A stretch of 64,000 nt of DNA from Terriglobia bacterium (GTDB taxonomy: Bacteria > Acidobacteriota > Terriglobia > JAIQFV01). Every line of letters starts with the position of its first letter. The first letter of the stretch is position 1. Where the stretch lies: assembly GCA_020073085.1 (NCBI GenBank), contig JAIQFV010000017.1, positions 1 to 64,000 of the forward strand, written 5' to 3'. This document shows, one piece after another, positions 4,207 through 11,539 of this stretch. The notes below the pieces were generated by a model. It was not told where the DNA came from, searched no databases, and worked only from the letters and a program-made list of their open reading frames with translations. Position numbers and translations under genes: made by a program.

Positions 4207-5166
4207 TTATCTGAACGAGCTGAGCTGTCCCGCATAGACGAAGATGTAGCGCAGGAGGTAACCGCCCATCAGGACCAGCAGGGCCGCAAACGCGGCGAGG
4301 GGCTTGTTGTGGTGGAGGGAAGCCTTCGAGAGCAGGACGGGCGCCATCTCCCACACCTCGATCGCGAGAGGCAGCAGTAATCCCAGTCCCATAAAAAACA
4401 CCCAAAAGACCAGCGTGTAGGGACCCCCCAGGATGAGCCCCAATGAATCCTGTACGGCGCGAACCGATAGCTCTCCGTGAATAATATAGGGCAGCACGAT
4501 GAAGAATTCGAGGGTGATGAAACAGATATCGAGGGTGTAGAGGAAACGCGCCTGACGCGGGTCGAGGTTCTTACGGTTCCAGGAAAGCGCAAAGATCAGG
4601 GTGGCACAGCCGGTCGAGAGTGCGGAGAACAAGAACATCTGGGCCACAAGATTCGTGTTCCAGAAAGGCCGTGACTGGACCGCCCCCAGGAGGACTCCAG
4701 TGTAAATCCCCACGGCAATGCTGACGGGAAACCCAATCATCGCCAGCCACCGGCGCCAGGCGGAGAGGTCACGATTGAGCTTCTTTAGAAATGCAAGCTT
4801 CCGGGGAAGCCTGGCGAAGAGCATTTCGCGCCGGTCCGAAGGGAACCAGGCGTAGAAGTAGAGCAGGGTGACCGCCGTAAAAAAGAGGAGCAACCAGGAG
4901 CCGATCGACATCGGGCTTTCCCACCTCAGGTGGGTAAACAGCTTGTAAAACCGGTACCAGTTCCCCAAGTCAAAAATCAGCAGGAGCGATCCGAGGGCGA
5001 CGGGCCACGGCGCCATCATGGCGCCGTATTTCGCGATCCGGGAATGAATGAATTCGTCTTTCTCCTGGAGGTAAGTGGCAAGGGCGGAGACGAAGAAGAT
5101 CCCTGCGGACAGCCCGCCTAGAAAGAGGTAGTTGACGATCAGCCATCCCCACTCGACATGTTTCAT
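4207..5166 (-). CDS. NrfD/PsrC-type membrane subunit of a molybdoenzyme complex
   Basis: The 319-residue polytopic protein has about eight to nine hydrophobic segments, starting with WGWLIVNYLFLGGLSAGIFF, the typical opening of NrfD/PsrC proteins. These subunits exchange electrons between the quinone pool and a periplasmic iron-sulfur subunit. It is the last gene of the operon that also encodes the ferredoxin and catalytic subunit, separated from the ferredoxin by 12 bp. Substrate specificity cannot be read from this subunit. Confidence 0.9.
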   Translation of the reverse strand: MKHVEWGWLIVNYLFLGGLSAGIFFVSALATYLQEKDEFIHSRIAKYGAMMAPWPVALGSLLLIFDLGNWYRFYKLFTHLRWESPMSIGSWLLLFFTAVTLLYFYAWFPSDRREMLFARLPRKLAFLKKLNRDLSAWRRWLAMIGFPVSIAVGIYTGVLLGAVQSRPFWNTNLVAQMFLFSALSTGCATLIFALSWNRKNLDPRQARFLYTLDICFITLEFFIVLPYIIHGELSVRAVQDSLGLILGGPYTLVFWVFFMGLGLLLPLAIEVWEMAPVLLSKASLHHNKPLAAFAALLVLMGGYLLRYIFVYAGQLSSFR

Positions 5167-5178
5167 AGCCCTCTCCCC

Positions 5179-5730
5179 CTACAACAGATAATAGATTTGC
5201 GGGCCATTGCCCGTTTCCGGTTTCTTCAGCCGGTATTGACGGGTGTTGAGAATTTCCCGAAGCCTTCCGTCGGCGTCATTGATGTCACCAAAGACGCGCA
5301 CCTTGGACGGGCAGGTCTCCACGCAGGCCGGAATTTCTCCACGGTCCACACGCTGGACACAGAAGGTACATTTTTCCACCACGCCGCGATCCTCGCGGAA
5401 GAAGCGGGCATCATACGGGCAGGCAATCATGCAGTAGCGGCAACCCACACACTCCGTGTCGTTGACGAGCACGACGCCGTCTTTCCGCTGCCATGAGGCC
5501 CCGGTCGGACACACCCGCACACAGGCCGGGCTGGCACAGTGATGACACTGTTCCGGTTCGAAGGCGGCCAGCATCTTCGGCCACGTCCCGTGATGTTCTT
5601 CTCCAATCCAGTCCCGGCTCTTGCCCAAGGGGACCTGGTTTTCGGCACGGCAGGCGACAACGCAGGCCTTGCAGTTCAGGCATTTTTTTGAATCGACGAT
5701 CAGGGCATAGCGTTTGGGTTGCGGGGCCAT
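5179..5730 (-). CDS. Four-cluster 4Fe-4S ferredoxin subunit (PsrB/NrfC/TtrB type)
   Basis: The 183-residue protein has four cysteine clusters: CLNCKACVVAC near the N-terminus, CHHCASPACVRVCP, CVGCRYCMIACP, and CTFCVQRVDRGEIPACVETCP. It would carry electrons between the membrane NrfD subunit and the molybdenum subunit. It has no signal peptide of its own, and such subunits usually cross the membrane with the Tat-exported catalytic partner. It lies 10 bp after the catalytic gene. Confidence 0.93.
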   Translation of the reverse strand: MAPQPKRYALIVDSKKCLNCKACVVACRAENQVPLGKSRDWIGEEHHGTWPKMLAAFEPEQCHHCASPACVRVCPTGASWQRKDGVVLVNDTECVGCRYCMIACPYDARFFREDRGVVEKCTFCVQRVDRGEIPACVETCPSKVRVFGDINDADGRLREILNTRQYRLKKPETGNGPQIYYLL

Positions 5731-5740
5731 AAGGATTCGC

Positions 5741-7930
5741 CTAAACCTTTCTCACTTTCACGAAGGTCTCGTGAAGGGCGGCGTTCCCCGAGACCTTGTC
5801 CCACGCCGTCTCCAGAAGCTGGGCATCGGACGCGCCCACCTCACAGGCGAGTCGCTGCCATTTCGTTCGTTTTCCAAAACCGTGCAACATGAATACGCAG
5901 TCCGGACGGATCTCCTCGGTCACCCGCGTCTTGATGCGGACCGTCCCGACCGCGCTGGCAACCTCGACCCGGTCGCCCTCCTTCACTCCAATGGCTTCTG
6001 CGGAGGTCGGGTGGATCCAGAGGTCGTTTTCGGGGGAGAATTCATTTAACCAGGGGTTGTTCGTGTTGTTGGCGTGCGTGAAGAAGGCCTTCCGGCCCAG
6101 GACCAGGCGAAACTTTCCGGCAGGAGGTTCCGTCGGGGATTGATAGACCGGCAGGGGATCATAGCCTGACTCCTGCAGCCGCTCGGAGTAGATTTCAATC
6201 TTGCCGGACTTGGTGACAAACCGGTGGTCCGGACTGAGGGTGGTTCCGTATTTCGGGACATCGGGCGCCGCCCAGACTCCGTGCTTCTTCAAGTATTCCA
6301 GGGGCATTTGGAACGGGAGCTCCTTGACCTGGGCGTCGATCCACTGCTCGATGGTGTAGTCGAAGTAATCCGAGAGCTTCAGCCGCTTGGCCAGGCCCTG
6401 AACGATCTCGAGCGTGGTCCGGGTGTCGTGGAGCGGTTTGATCACAGGTTGTCGCAGGACGACCACGGGCCAGATCCCGGACAGCACCTCCACCGGATCG
6501 AGGCGTTCCAGGTAGGTCGATTCCGGAAAAATCACATCGGCATACCATGCCGTGTCGCTCATTTGAATGTCGACCACCCCGACAAATTCCATTTGCTCGA
6601 TCATGCGGAGGGTCCGCGCCTGGTCGGGCAGGGCGTTCATGGGATCCTGCTTGTGGATCATCCACCCTTTGACCGGATAGGGGGAAGCCGCCAGCACGTT
6701 CTCGCGCAGTTTGAGGTACGCCCCATCTCCTTTGGCGGCGAGAGGGAAGTTCTTATCGAGCTCGTCGATGCGGGGCGCCTTGGGATCGTCCCAGGGCAGG
6801 AAGAGATATTCCCCCAGTTCAATCTTGTTATTCGGTACCATGCCGCCCTGCCGGTCCCAGTTGCCGACCACGGCATTGAGGATGGCCTGGGCGCGGCGCA
6901 TCTGGAAATCGTTCTGATACCAGGAGGACCTTCTCCCGGCGTAGTAGACCGCCCGCGGGGCGGCGTCAGAAAACTCGCGCGCGATCCGGAGAATTTCTTT
7001 CGCGGGGATCTCGGTCTCTTTTTCGGCCCACTCCGGCGTGTAGGGTTTGACGTGTTCGATGAGTTTGTCGAAACCGGTACAATAGGAATTGACGAATTCC
7101 TTGTCGTAGCGATTTTCGCCGACAATCACATTCAGCATGGCAAGGATGAAGGCCATGTCGGTTCCCGGCTTGATGGGAAACCAGGCGTCCGCCTTGGCCG
7201 CCGTCACCGTGAAGCGCGGGTCCAGACAAATCAGGCGGGCCTTCCGGTTCATGGTGGCGTCGATCAGGTCCATCGTGTCCGGTGTGATGAAGGCCTCGAA
7301 GCGGTTGGCGCCGGACATGATGACGTAATTGCAGTTGAGGAGATCGAAGGAGGGAACCGTTCCGAAGGTGGCGGAGTAGGCCAGGTTCACCGAGGCCAGA
7401 CACAAGGTGGGATGCCGGACGATATTGGGAGAGCCGAAGGCCAGTCCCAGGTTCTTGAAGAAGATTTCCTGAAAGCTTTCCGTCGAGGACCACAGCGTTC
7501 CCTGGGGACCGTATTTTTCTTTGATCGCCGAAAGCTTTCCCGCCGCGAAGTCAAAGGCTTCCTCCCAGCTGGCTGGCCGCCATTTGCCTTCCCCCCGCTC
7601 GCCGGCGCGAATCAGCGGGCGCTTGATGCGGGCCGGATCGTACACCTGTTGAATGCCCGCATTTCCCCGCGCGCAGAGCATGCCGCGGGACTTGGGATTC
7701 TCGGGGTTCGGATTCAGTTTCTGAATGACCCCTTCATGGACGACGGCGATGACAGAGCACTTATTCGGACAGAGTTCGCAGGTCGTGGGGACTTCGAGGC
7801 GCTGGGGGACGGGTGCGGTCTCCTTGATGAACGGCTTCAAGCACCCCGCCTGAGTGGCCAGGGCCGCCCCGAGCGCGCCTCCCGTGGTCATCCGGAAGAA
7901 ACTCCGCCGGTCAAGCTGATTCTTTCCCAT
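5741..7930 (-). CDS. Tat-exported molybdopterin oxidoreductase (PsrA/PhsA-like)
   Basis: The 729-residue catalytic subunit begins with a Tat signal (DRRSFFRM at 7-14, hydrophobic stretch to about 29). It has a 4Fe-4S set CELCPNKC (C51, C54, C58) plus C86, and then the bis-MGD oxidoreductase domains with the dinucleotide-binding region at the C-terminus. HPTLC places C177 where polysulfide and thiosulfate reductases have the Mo-ligating cysteine. AGC at 28-30 after the Tat stretch could even be a lipobox. A sulfur-compound reductase is the best guess; tetrathionate or arsenate cannot be excluded. Confidence 0.9.
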   Translation of the reverse strand: MGKNQLDRRSFFRMTTGGALGAALATQAGCLKPFIKETAPVPQRLEVPTTCELCPNKCSVIAVVHEGVIQKLNPNPENPKSRGMLCARGNAGIQQVYDPARIKRPLIRAGERGEGKWRPASWEEAFDFAAGKLSAIKEKYGPQGTLWSSTESFQEIFFKNLGLAFGSPNIVRHPTLCLASVNLAYSATFGTVPSFDLLNCNYVIMSGANRFEAFITPDTMDLIDATMNRKARLICLDPRFTVTAAKADAWFPIKPGTDMAFILAMLNVIVGENRYDKEFVNSYCTGFDKLIEHVKPYTPEWAEKETEIPAKEILRIAREFSDAAPRAVYYAGRRSSWYQNDFQMRRAQAILNAVVGNWDRQGGMVPNNKIELGEYLFLPWDDPKAPRIDELDKNFPLAAKGDGAYLKLRENVLAASPYPVKGWMIHKQDPMNALPDQARTLRMIEQMEFVGVVDIQMSDTAWYADVIFPESTYLERLDPVEVLSGIWPVVVLRQPVIKPLHDTRTTLEIVQGLAKRLKLSDYFDYTIEQWIDAQVKELPFQMPLEYLKKHGVWAAPDVPKYGTTLSPDHRFVTKSGKIEIYSERLQESGYDPLPVYQSPTEPPAGKFRLVLGRKAFFTHANNTNNPWLNEFSPENDLWIHPTSAEAIGVKEGDRVEVASAVGTVRIKTRVTEEIRPDCVFMLHGFGKRTKWQRLACEVGASDAQLLETAWDKVSGNAALHETFVKVRKV

Positions 7931-7984: not shown

Positions 7985-9568
7985 CTAGAACCTTGTTTCG
8001 AACATCATGTAGATATTGCTGACCTTCTTCGGGAAGGGATAGAAATTCACAACATTGGGATTGTCGAGACTGAAGAATTCCAGGGGCCCGGGGGCGATGT
8101 GCCAGCCGCTGAAGGCGGTGGAGTAGTTGTAATGGATGTAGCCGGCTTTGAGCACAAGGTTCTTGACCATCGTCCAGTGCAGGTAGGTTTCCCACACGTT
8201 GCCGCGGGCGGACAGCTTGTCGCTCGGTTCGCCGGCCGTCGGGGTGTAAGTAAACCAGTTGGGCGAGCCATGGTTAAACTCCAGTCCCACCGAGAGATTC
8301 TTCGCCGGAGAGTATTTCATCCCGGTATAAACCCCCGTTCCACTGCGGGAATGGAGCGGGTCGCCCAGGAGTCCGCCAAAGCCGTACTGGCTGACTTTTC
8401 CATTTGGATGGGACTTGATATAGCCTCCGCTGAGGAAGTACGTGAAGTTATCTCCAATGGTGTGCATCCACGTCGCTCCCAACTGGTCCATGTTGCCCAG
8501 GTTGTTGGTGGCGGTCACATACTGCGTAGTGGGAAACGCAAAGGCAGCGGGGACGGGAAAGTTGTTCAAGGCGCCGTACGGGATGTCGGTCATGTTGGTG
8601 AAGCGGTTGTAGCCCACCAGAAGCCGGGTGCTGCTGACCGTTTTTCCGGTCTGGAAAAGCAGGGGCATGTCATAAGTGAATCCCACCACGCGGCTGTCCT
8701 TCATGCCATTGATGTGTCCGAGGCCGAAGGGGGTGATGGTGTAATTTTCGGAGACCTGGCCGCCGCCCCCGAACCCGGATTCGTAGCCGATGCCGCCGCA
8801 CACGCCGATGTTGGTCCCCTCGGGAAAGCCGATCTTGTCGAGATGGTAGTCGATATGCATGCCGTCGACTTCGGCGTTCACCATGATGGCCTGAGGGGTG
8901 GCCTGACGCTCGGTGCCCTCACGCAACTCCAGGGGCGGGCCGTCACTGCTGTTCATGCGGCCGAAGGAGAAGGTGAAGGGCGCATTGGGGATGTCCCATT
9001 TCAACAGTGCGCGCTCCACACGGATGACTTCGTTGCTGGGGATGCGGCTGGAATTGAACGAATTTAGAACCGTGCCCGGGAGGCCGTTGAAGAGAGGAAC
9101 GTCGGATCCCCCGTAGAGTTTGTACATGCTCAGCCGTCCCATGAACTTGAGGTTCTCATTGATGTCGGCACTCATCTTGAGGCGCAGCCGCAGGGAGTAC
9201 TGCCCGGAATTATTGAGGTTCTGCTCGGGGACCGCGACCGGGGCGCTGGTGGTTCCCGTGAACTGCTGGTAGGGGTTGATCTTCCAATTCAGATTGTCAA
9301 AGCGCACCCGCATGTCGCCGCCCCACTTGATGTTGTTTCCGGCGGTTTTGGATTCCACTTTTTCCAGGCGATCGTTGAGGTCGGCGATGTCGGCGACCGG
9401 GGCGGCGGCCGCGGCGGGCTGCGCCGCGTTGACCTTTTCTTCCAGGGCCAGGAGCTGTTGCTTCAACTGTTCAATCTGTTTCTTGAGTTCGTCGTTGGTC
9501 TGAGCCTGGATCAATAAAGGGGAAACGAGGATGGCGATGAAAGCGATGATGAGGATTAATTTACGCAT
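7985..9568 (-). CDS. Outer-membrane beta-barrel protein with N-terminal coiled coil
   Basis: The protein of about 527 residues has a signal peptide ending near AQA, then a heptad-rich coiled coil (DELKKQIEQLKQQLLALEEKV). The rest is a long Gly/aromatic-rich barrel region ending in FETRF, a typical outer-membrane C-terminus. It resembles porin-like proteins of the DUF3373 kind, but I cannot confirm the family. AAGGAG precedes the start at 9568. It sits inside the molybdoenzyme operon between cytochrome and catalytic genes, which suggests a role in substrate passage or envelope anchoring of the complex. Confidence 0.8.
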   Translation of the reverse strand: MRKLILIIAFIAILVSPLLIQAQTNDELKKQIEQLKQQLLALEEKVNAAQPAAAAAPVADIADLNDRLEKVESKTAGNNIKWGGDMRVRFDNLNWKINPYQQFTGTTSAPVAVPEQNLNNSGQYSLRLRLKMSADINENLKFMGRLSMYKLYGGSDVPLFNGLPGTVLNSFNSSRIPSNEVIRVERALLKWDIPNAPFTFSFGRMNSSDGPPLELREGTERQATPQAIMVNAEVDGMHIDYHLDKIGFPEGTNIGVCGGIGYESGFGGGGQVSENYTITPFGLGHINGMKDSRVVGFTYDMPLLFQTGKTVSSTRLLVGYNRFTNMTDIPYGALNNFPVPAAFAFPTTQYVTATNNLGNMDQLGATWMHTIGDNFTYFLSGGYIKSHPNGKVSQYGFGGLLGDPLHSRSGTGVYTGMKYSPAKNLSVGLEFNHGSPNWFTYTPTAGEPSDKLSARGNVWETYLHWTMVKNLVLKAGYIHYNYSTAFSGWHIAPGPLEFFSLDNPNVVNFYPFPKKVSNIYMMFETRF

Positions 9569-9714
9569 AAAGTCTCCTTGTTCCGAGAGATGAGGAGCGG
9601 GATTGGTCATGGAACCGTGAGGCCCGCGGGGACAGGGCCGTCCGGCGGTGAAGGGGTCAGGCCGGCGTGGAGAGACCTGGGTCCGTTCATCCCGGATCCA
9701 ACGGGACCGGTTTG

Positions 9715-10056
9715 CTATTTGCCGCAGGTTTCAGGCTGAGGAGAGTCCGAAGCGTGCGCCTGCAAGTAGGTGGCGACGTCCACGAGCTCCTCGGCGCTCA
9801 TCAGTTTAATGAGCTGTTCTTTTCCCTTGGCATGTTTGGCTGCGGTGAAGTAGGCTTTCCACTGGGTCTGGGTCTTGCTGAGCGGCGTGATCTCGGATCC
9901 CGCGGCTCCCTTGGTATGGCAGGTCTTGCAGGTTTTTCTGAAGAAGAAGCGGCCTTTGGTCTCGCTGCCGGAGGAGGCGGACGAGACGGCGAAGGCGAGG
10001 GTCATCCAGAGTCCGAGGCTGATGAGGGCGACGAGCAGTTTGAGTCCTTTTCGCAT
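9715..10056 (-). CDS. Small class I c-type cytochrome
   Basis: The 113-residue exported protein has an N-terminal signal peptide (MRKGLKLLVALISLGLW...AFA), one haem site CKTCH, and a C-terminal region with M-S-A-E-E-L-V-D-V-A-T-Y-L, the usual last helix of monohaem cytochromes. A methionine just before this helix may be the sixth ligand. It is the first gene of the operon and probably carries electrons in the periplasm to or from the molybdoenzyme. Confidence 0.88.
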   Translation of the reverse strand: MRKGLKLLVALISLGLWMTLAFAVSSASSGSETKGRFFFRKTCKTCHTKGAAGSEITPLSKTQTQWKAYFTAAKHAKGKEQLIKLMSAEELVDVATYLQAHASDSPQPETCGK

Positions 10057-10365
10057 GGTCTGTCTCCGATGAATAAGCGTTATTCCGGTTATGAATGAAG
10101 TTCAGTTCAAAAGGCGAGGGGGTGGGAGCGCAGCCGAGGGATCGTGTGTTCGTGAACCTTTTCACAAGACAGGGCAAAGCAAAAATCGCCCGCCCTTCCT
10201 CTGCTCCCCCCGCCGTGGACCCCGCCCGGCGTCCCGGGCGGACAGGGCGCCGGCGTGTTCCGTTCCGAACCATTGAAACATTCCACTATAGCAATCATCA
10301 CTTGATAATTGAATAGTAATATAGTAATATTGTCAAGTGTTTTTTTTCACAAAGGAGGGGCACCC
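10057..10365. other. Regulatory region between the respiratory operon and its ArsR-type gene
   Basis: The 5' untranslated region of the cytochrome gene is GC-rich without a recognisable motif. The AT-rich part (10281-10350) contains the overlapping promoters and inverted repeat listed separately. No further gene is supported. Confidence 0.6.
10299..10339. promoter_or_regulatory. Overlapping opposed promoters framed by a CACTTGA/TCAAGTG palindrome
   Basis: Plus-strand promoter: -35 TTGATA at 10302-10307, a 17-bp spacer, -10 TAATAT at 10325-10330. Minus-strand promoter: -35 TTGACA at 10336-10331, a 17-bp spacer, -10 TTCAAT at 10313-10308. Perfect 7-bp arms CACTTGA (10299-10305) and TCAAGTG (10333-10339) contain parts of both -35 boxes. 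The arms are probably the ArsR-type operator, inferred from their symmetry and position. Confidence 0.7.
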
Positions 10366-10728
10366 GTGGTGATTGATCCATCCATGCTCACGGACGAGGC
10401 GCTGGAAATGGTGGCGGCGCGGTTCCGCTGCCTGGCGGAGCCGATGCGCCTGAAGATCCTGCGCGCGCTGCAGGAGCGGGAGCTGACCGTGGGTCAGCTG
10501 GTGCGGCAGCTCGAAGCCAACCAGGCCAATATCAGCAAGCACCTCAAGGTGCTGATGGAGGCGGGGGTGGTCGCGCGGCGGTCGCAGGGGACATCGGCGC
10601 ACTTTTCGATTTCCGATCCGATGATCCTCACGCTGTGCCACACCATCTGCAACGGGCTGGCGGAGAAATTGAAGACCCAGGCGAAAGGCTTCGGCCTCAC
10701 CCTCGCGAAGCGACGGGCCGCCCGATGA
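10366..10728 (+). CDS. ArsR-family winged-helix transcription regulator
   Basis: The protein of about 120 residues has the ArsR-type helix-turn-helix RLKILRALQERELTVGQLVRQL followed by QANISKHLKVLMEAGVVARR. AAAGGAGG at 10351-10358 places the start at the GTG at 10366 (a second GTG follows at 10369) rather than at the upstream ATG, which would fall inside the promoter. No CxC metal motif lies in the recognition helix; cysteines are limited to one near the N-terminus and two near the C-terminus (LCHTIC). It is divergent from the molybdoenzyme operon and very likely controls it and itself. Confidence 0.88.
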   Translation: MVIDPSMLTDEALEMVAARFRCLAEPMRLKILRALQERELTVGQLVRQLEANQANISKHLKVLMEAGVVARRSQGTSAHFSISDPMILTLCHTICNGLAEKLKTQAKGFGLTLAKRRAAR

Positions 10729-11036
10729 CGGTTTGATCCGCATGAGGAAACGGGAACCTCCCCGGTGCACGGGTCGAGGTTTTCCCGCGCGCTGAACCCC
10801 CTATCGCCCCCGTTCCCCGCACTGTTCCCGGAATGCGGCAGACGACATTCTCGGACCCTGCGCGGATCCGGCGCCGATCCGCTTCCAGCGGCGACCCGCG
10901 GGGAGCGAGGGGCTGCAAGAATTGTTCTCCTCTCGAACGAGCTGCCGTCTCCTTCATGGTCTCCCCCTCGAGCGGTCTCCCCTGCAGTCCGCCGCCCGGC
11001 GAGACCCCCGGTCCCCGGGGAGCCGAATCCCTCCTC
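10729..11036. other. GC-rich intergenic stretch
   Basis: No gene supported. The open frames are GC-driven and have no recognisable content. A weak CGGGAACCTC...GAGGTTTTCCCG pairing after the ArsR stop (about 10750-10787) lacks a T run. Confidence 0.4.
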
Positions 11037-11065
11037 TTGACAAATGTCGTTATAACGACTATTAT
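11037..11065 (+). promoter_or_regulatory. Promoter with perfect palindromic operator in the spacer
   Basis: -35 TTGACA (11037-11042), 17-bp spacer and -10 TATTAT (11060-11065). The spacer ends with the perfect 14-bp palindrome GTCGTTATAACGAC (11046-11059), which is MarR-like in form. The ATG of the MarR gene lies seven bases after the -10 box, so the transcript would be leaderless or nearly so. Confidence 0.75.
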
Positions 11066-11071
11066 GCCGTG

Positions 11072-11539
11072 ATGCCGGCGCCGACACCGCGGAGAAAGGG
11101 ACGGGAACAGTTCCCGGGGCCACTCGGGGAAGAGCTGTATCTCCAGCTCCAGCGGTCGGCCGAGGCGCTCCGGCAACGGCTGGAAGCGGCCTTGAAACCG
11201 GCCGGGCTGTCGCCGACCCAGTACAACGTGCTCAGAATCCTGCGGGGCGCCGGGCCGGGAGGCCTGCCCTGCCGCCGGATTGCGGAGCGCATGGTGACGC
11301 GCGACCCCGACATCACGAGGCTGCTCGACCGGCTGGAGGCCCGCGGGTGGGTCGCCCGGACCCGCGAAAAGAAGGATCGCCGGGTCATCACCACACGCAT
11401 CACGGAGGCCGGCTTGAGGCGGCTGAAGACACTGGATGAGCCGGTGGCCGGCATGCACCGCCAGCAGGTCGGCCAGGTGCCGGAGCGGACCCTGCGGGCA
11501 CTGATCGGGCTGCTGAAGCAGGTGCGGAGTCCGCGATGA
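11072..11539 (+). CDS. MarR-family transcription regulator
   Basis: The 155-residue protein has the MarR winged-helix core: PTQYNVLRILRGAGPGGLPC, then RIAERMVTRDPDITRLLDRLEARGWVART, and the wing REKKDRRVITTRITEAG. I start at the ATG at 11072; upstream codons lie in the promoter, although an in-frame GTG directly precedes it. The palindrome inside its own promoter indicates autorepression. The next gene, a dehydrogenase, begins 100 bp downstream and may be co-transcribed. Confidence 0.88.
   Translation: MPAPTPRRKGREQFPGPLGEELYLQLQRSAEALRQRLEAALKPAGLSPTQYNVLRILRGAGPGGLPCRRIAERMVTRDPDITRLLDRLEARGWVARTREKKDRRVITTRITEAGLRRLKTLDEPVAGMHRQQVGQVPERTLRALIGLLKQVRSPR

Follow-up and report, generated by a model that had tools for sequence, protein, structure and literature searches.

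The locus and its divergent operon

The intergenic region considered here separates an arsR-family gene from a divergent molybdoenzyme operon, and raises the question of whether one short segment could drive transcription in both directions and place both under a single regulator. In the window (the whole 64-kb stretch of DNA that was analysed), the arsR-family repressor gene lies on the plus strand at 10366-10728. It has a GTG start, encodes a protein of 120 aa with a C-x3-C motif close to the C-terminus, and is preceded by the ribosome-binding site GGAGGGG (10354-10360, plus strand). The operon on the minus strand is comprised of genes for a small c-type cytochrome (gene 1, 9715-10056), a DUF3373 protein inferred to be outer-membrane porin-like (7985-9568), a PsrA/PhsA-like molybdopterin oxidoreductase (5741-7930), a 4Fe-4S electron-transfer subunit (5179-5730) and an NrfD/PsrC-like membrane subunit (4207-5166). 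No Rfam family was identified in 9700-10800.

The closest solved relative of the molybdoenzyme is PDB 2vpw, deposited as a thiosulfate reductase and known as the Thermus PsrA. The combination of a molybdoenzyme, a 4Fe-4S protein and an NrfD-like membrane subunit is that of the PsrABC/PhsABC polysulfide or thiosulfate reductases; the window operon differs in its additional cytochrome c and DUF3373 protein, and its molybdoenzyme scored under the cut-off of the PhsA thiosulfate reductase model (NF012032; 606.7 against 694 bits). An arsenate reductase operon was rejected, as the ArrA score was far under the cut-off (197.2 against 1600 bits). Close relatives of the operon (L120-L129) were found without this arsR gene adjacent, and control of the operon by ArsR would therefore be a local arrangement.

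Two predicted opposed promoters in a 41-bp element

The 41-bp element at 10299-10339 holds two predicted opposed promoters and a predicted ArsR operator, and has a GC content of 23%, compared with 55-61% in the window. Its left arm, CACTTGATAAT (10299-10309, plus strand), includes the -35 box of the arsR promoter, TTGATA (10302-10307), which is paired with the -10 box TAATAT (10325-10330); the start is predicted at ~10337. The right arm (ATTGTCAAGTG on the plus strand; 10329-10339) includes the minus-strand -35 box TTGACA (10331-10336), a 6/6 match, paired with the weak -10 box TTCAAT (10308-10313), and the divergent start would fall at ~10301. The first-pass annotation had placed a -35 hexamer in each arm with a 17-bp spacer on each strand, and the sequence agrees with it on both points.

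The plus promoter (TTGATA-17-TAATAT) matches the consensus at 9 of 12 positions and the minus promoter (TTGACA-17-TTCAAT) at 10 of 12. These divergent sigma-70-type promoters, with spacers near 17 bp, occupy the same DNA; their overlap (10308-10330) is almost complete, and the -10 box of each strand adjoins the -35 box of the opposite promoter. An opposed overlapping pair of equal quality was seen in none of 1000 dinucleotide shuffles of 10057-10365; for the AT-rich part alone (10261-10365) the frequency was 0.5% (p ≤0.005 in either case). A single further pair as good is present in the 64-kb window, at ~19467, within a coding region. No single -10 element serving both directions was found, the best boxes being the separate ones at 10308-10313 and 10325-10330. 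The inverted arms match at 10 of 11 positions, which on its own is marginal, as such arms were found in 2 to 6% of shuffles.

The description of the promoters as fully overlapping and opposed thus stands for the overlap itself, which exceeds that of shuffled sequence, and is weakened on the minus strand, where TTCAAT lacks the key A at the second position. Because of this a strict promoter scan gives the plus promoter only, and no opposed pair with a second-position A in both -10 boxes occurs in the 10057-10365 region. By sequence, the minus promoter is weaker than had been implied. Given this poor -10 box, transcription of the molybdoenzyme operon may begin at another site, one candidate being TGCTATAGT (10293-10285, minus strand), an extended -10 with a poor -35. 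The promoter on the molybdoenzyme side may accordingly be weak, or the extended -10 may be used instead.

Conservation of the element

In L102, a genome of the same phylum, an orthologous locus shows this divergent order of arsR, cytochrome, porin-like and molybdoenzyme genes; it was the sole ortholog found with the complete arrangement. The identities are 58% for arsR, 67% for the porin-like gene and 61% for the start of the molybdoenzyme, where the contig ends. Compared without gaps, the two intergenic regions agree best over the 37-mer that is exactly 10301-10337, with 30 of 37 bases identical; the best 37-mer match of the shuffles was 24/37, and none of 1000 reached 30. Outside this footprint, no alignment between the L102 and window intergenic regions was obtained. 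A 37-bp match without alignable sequence around it makes it very likely that the segment at 10299-10339 is a real functional unit.

Within the footprint, the CTTGA and TCAAG arms are both kept, their outer bases show a single matched change, from A/T to G/C, and the minus-strand TTGACA box is conserved. L102 has TTAAAT where the window has the minus -10 box TTCAAT. The extended -10 TGCTATAGT is absent at the same place in L102.

A predicted ArsR operator between the arms

The regions upstream of arsR homologs in Acidobacteria, Proteobacteria, Chlorobi and other groups yielded a palindromic 20-bp matrix (consensus ATATAACTATATAGTTATAT), which was trained with the window and L102 excluded and then scanned over the 64-kb window. 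The palindrome ATATnACTATATAGTnATAT was common to the upstream regions of 60 of 70 homologous ArsR genes. Four different starting motifs led to the same palindrome, at 19.3 bits against ~11 in shuffled upstream regions.

The top two matches in the window were GAATAGTAATATAGTAATAT (10311-10330) and, shifted by 8 bp, TGATAATTGAATAGTAATAT (10303-10322), at 9.8 bits each; the next match elsewhere scored 5.8 bits, and shuffles of the region reached the operator score in 0.2 to 0.9% of cases (p 0.002 to 0.009). As the best sites lie at 10303-10330, the predicted operator covers the two -10 boxes and is flanked by the -35 boxes. A palindromic operator overlapping the core promoter, as in the ArsR/SmtB family, is thus predicted here, in degenerate copies (9.8 bits, compared with 15-29 bits in most homologs). 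In the site at 10311-10330 the right half-site fits the family and the left half is degenerate, and together the two sites amount to a tandem repeat of one good half-site pattern, offset by 8 bp (ATAGTAAT ATAGTAATAT). The palindrome is better in L102 (19.7 bits).

A different 20-bp palindrome, CAATnATCAnnTGATnATTG (10292-10311), was rejected as an operator, since it is missing from the homologs and from L102. It overlaps the plus -35 box, the genome is otherwise without a match to it at ≤2 mismatches, and it may have arisen by chance.

The ArsR paralog L050 of the same genome had no such operator upstream, and when the whole genome was searched with the degenerate operator for other members of a regulon, the 30 matches did not exceed the 47 of the reversed control. 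In the same-phylum genomes L126 (7009), L127 (7607) and L128 (3900), which carry the cytochrome, porin and molybdoenzyme operon with no adjacent arsR of this type, the ArsR matrix still gave sites of 11-17 bits upstream of the operon. In L006 (2326-3140), the single intergenic region between two divergent arsR paralogs holds a strong operator of this family (23.7 bits), and rhodanese and metallo-beta-lactamase-fold genes apparently follow the left paralog.

The arms as -35 boxes

TTGACA-like hexamers (5 or 6 positions) flanked the operator on the left in 20 and on the right in 26 of 74 homologs; shuffled flanks gave 5.4 and 5.5, respectively, with a maximum of 13. Boxes were present on both sides in 8 of the 74, including L008, L010, L075, L082 and L084, and many homologs had a TTGAC box on one side only. 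The gap between box and operator was 0, 3, 8, 9 or 10 bp in the relatives. The minus-strand TTGACA of the window abuts the operator, an arrangement seen also in L009, L010, L017, L018, L082 and L083. Furthermore, -10 boxes with at least 5 of 6 matches lay 16-18 bp from the -35 box in 17 of 41 cases, compared with 4.5 (maximum 10) at displaced positions, and L008 carries two near-consensus promoters, TTGACT-17-TATAAA and TTGACA-17-TATAGT.

Since the gaps to the palindrome vary and the boxes pair with a -10 box of their own, the arms are best read as the -35 boxes of opposed promoters and not as operator half-sites. The layout is a habit of this group of ArsR regulators. The earlier term "operator arms" does not hold, as the family operator falls between the arms. 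A core promoter common to arsR and the molybdoenzyme operon gains support from the footprint kept in L102 and from the recurrence of the layout in the family.

The ArsR family and its likely signal

The window protein contains the winged-helix ArsR domain (PF01022, E 6e-16; NF033788, 79.1 bits with a cut-off of 55). It was under the cut-off of the BigR model (44.8 against 155 bits) and of the CmtR and TsoR NCBIfam equivalogs (43.7/150 and 41.7/115 bits). The C-x3-C motif close to the C-terminus is present in 32 of 37 aligned family members. The window protein also has an extra cysteine (FRCLAEP), at a position where every aligned homolog lacks one.

The divergent neighbours of 38 homologs included YeeE-type sulfur transporters (11), outer-membrane efflux proteins (8), rhodaneses (5), TauE sulfite exporters (3) and metallo-beta-lactamase-fold proteins (3). 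These neighbours point to control of sulfur, or efflux, genes rather than to arsenic. A reactive sulfur species is the most likely signal, because sulfur genes neighbour the homologs and the C-x3-C cysteines are common. A thiophilic metal is less likely; the outer-membrane efflux genes common beside the homologs are compatible with it.

The sulfane-sulfur-responsive ArsR repressors, namely SoxR and sHdrR of Hyphomicrobium, BigR, SqrR and YgaV, have the ArsR fold, as here (PMC10451225, PMC12423496), and the YeeE-like transporter, rhodanese and metallo-beta-lactamase-fold neighbours of the homologs add to the likeness. YgaV/HlyU-type proteins belong among the two-cysteine sulfur sensors (PMC12423496) and have their first cysteine in RLxILC, whereas the window family has C-x3-C instead. 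As the RLxILC cysteine was absent (0 of 37 homologs), assignment of the window ArsR to BigR/SqrR was withheld. Speculatively, the arsR gene could belong to an undescribed ArsR subfamily, defined by C-x3-C and the operator ATATnACTATATAGTnATAT, acting as a reactive-sulfur sensor with a cysteine pair other than that of BigR/SqrR; it would have been placed in this lineage over a polysulfide-reductase-like respiratory operon, its operator having decayed to overlapping half-sites such that the two directions are repressed unequally.

Proposed mechanism and alternatives

We consider it probable that the 41 bp serve as a core promoter and operator common to both directions, through which one ArsR protein represses its own gene and the molybdoenzyme operon. 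Two sigma-70-type promoters would face each other head-on, with the outer arms as -35 boxes and each -10 box against the opposite -35. We infer that an ArsR dimer binds the AT-rich sites between the -35 boxes (10303-10330), over both -10 boxes, and would there bar polymerase from both directions, such that arsR and the cytochrome, porin and PsrA-like molybdoenzyme operon are repressed. A signal at the C-x3-C cysteines, more likely reactive sulfur than a thiophilic metal, would release ArsR and allow transcription both ways. The earlier proposal that a regulator on the arms would block both promoters keeps its first part, in that one regulator could block both; its site moves from the arms to the predicted ArsR sites.

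That the regulator binds the inverted arms themselves (CACTTGA...TCAAGTG), with the -35 boxes part of the operator, was the reading of the first-pass annotation and now appears improbable. The retention of CTTGA/TCAAG in L102 with its one matched outer change would suit it, as would arms marginally beyond chance; however, the TTGAC boxes of the homologs stand at variable distances from the palindrome, often on one side, and pair with -10 boxes, and the arm centres are 30 bp apart, too far for one dimer given the 20-bp family palindrome. The likeness to promoters and operator could also be a product of chance in an AT-rich intergenic stretch, as an element of 23% GC in a window of 55-61% GC easily gives -10-like boxes. 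This is very improbable, as it is contradicted by the results of dinucleotide shuffling, by conservation of the footprint and by the independently derived family matrix.

A less likely alternative than common control, though a more serious one than either of these, is that the plus promoter alone is real and autoregulated, and that the operon starts from another promoter in its long leader or at TGCTATAGT, possibly with an activator. The minus -10 box lacking its critical A, the good extended -10 at TGCTATAGT and the leader of ~245 nt that a start at 10301 would entail all favour it. However, the minus TTGACA is a 6/6 match that L102 retains, and it adjoins the operator in the manner of six homologs, whereas TGCTATAGT is missing from L102, and ArsR at 10303-10330 would still cover the -35 region of the TGCTATAGT promoter.

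Comparison with known overlapping promoters

Two documented systems resemble the common promoter and operator proposed here. In the Pc/Pr pair of pLS20, controlled by RcoLS20, the opposed -10 and -35 boxes likewise swap places, the regulator gene lies at one side and the operator lies over the core promoters (PMC4207663). RcoLS20 is not ArsR-type, and the second operator, DNA looping and self-activation of pLS20 (PMC4207663) were not seen here. In E. coli acrA/acrR, as here, a repressor gene and a divergent operon are expressed from one core promoter region and the repressor acts on both (PMC12825309). AcrR belongs to the TetR family, unlike the ArsR protein of the window, and bidirectional promoters of the acrA/acrR type have one common -10 element, whereas here each strand has its own (PMC12825309).

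Judged against these precedents of overlapping divergent promoters with an autorepressor, the switch architecture is not new. To call it unusually compact was an overstatement, as the -10 and -35 boxes of pLS20 Pc/Pr exactly swap places (PMC4207663). Nor need the two directions compete for polymerase: at five of five tested bidirectional promoters of E. coli, basal activity did not suffice for competition, and polymerases competed only with one direction strongly activated (PMC12825309). For a widespread ArsR-type group whose genes neighbour those of sulfur transporters, rhodaneses and sulfite exporters, the locus offers a testable operator, and it connects one member of the group with a respiratory molybdoenzyme operon.

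A neighbouring MarR-family gene

A MarR-family gene in the neighbourhood has a near-consensus promoter, TTGACA-17-TATTAT, at 11037-11065 of the window, with a perfect 14-bp palindrome, GTCGTTATAACGAC (11046-11059), within the spacer. The ATG of this gene lies at 11072, and the transcript may therefore be almost leaderless.
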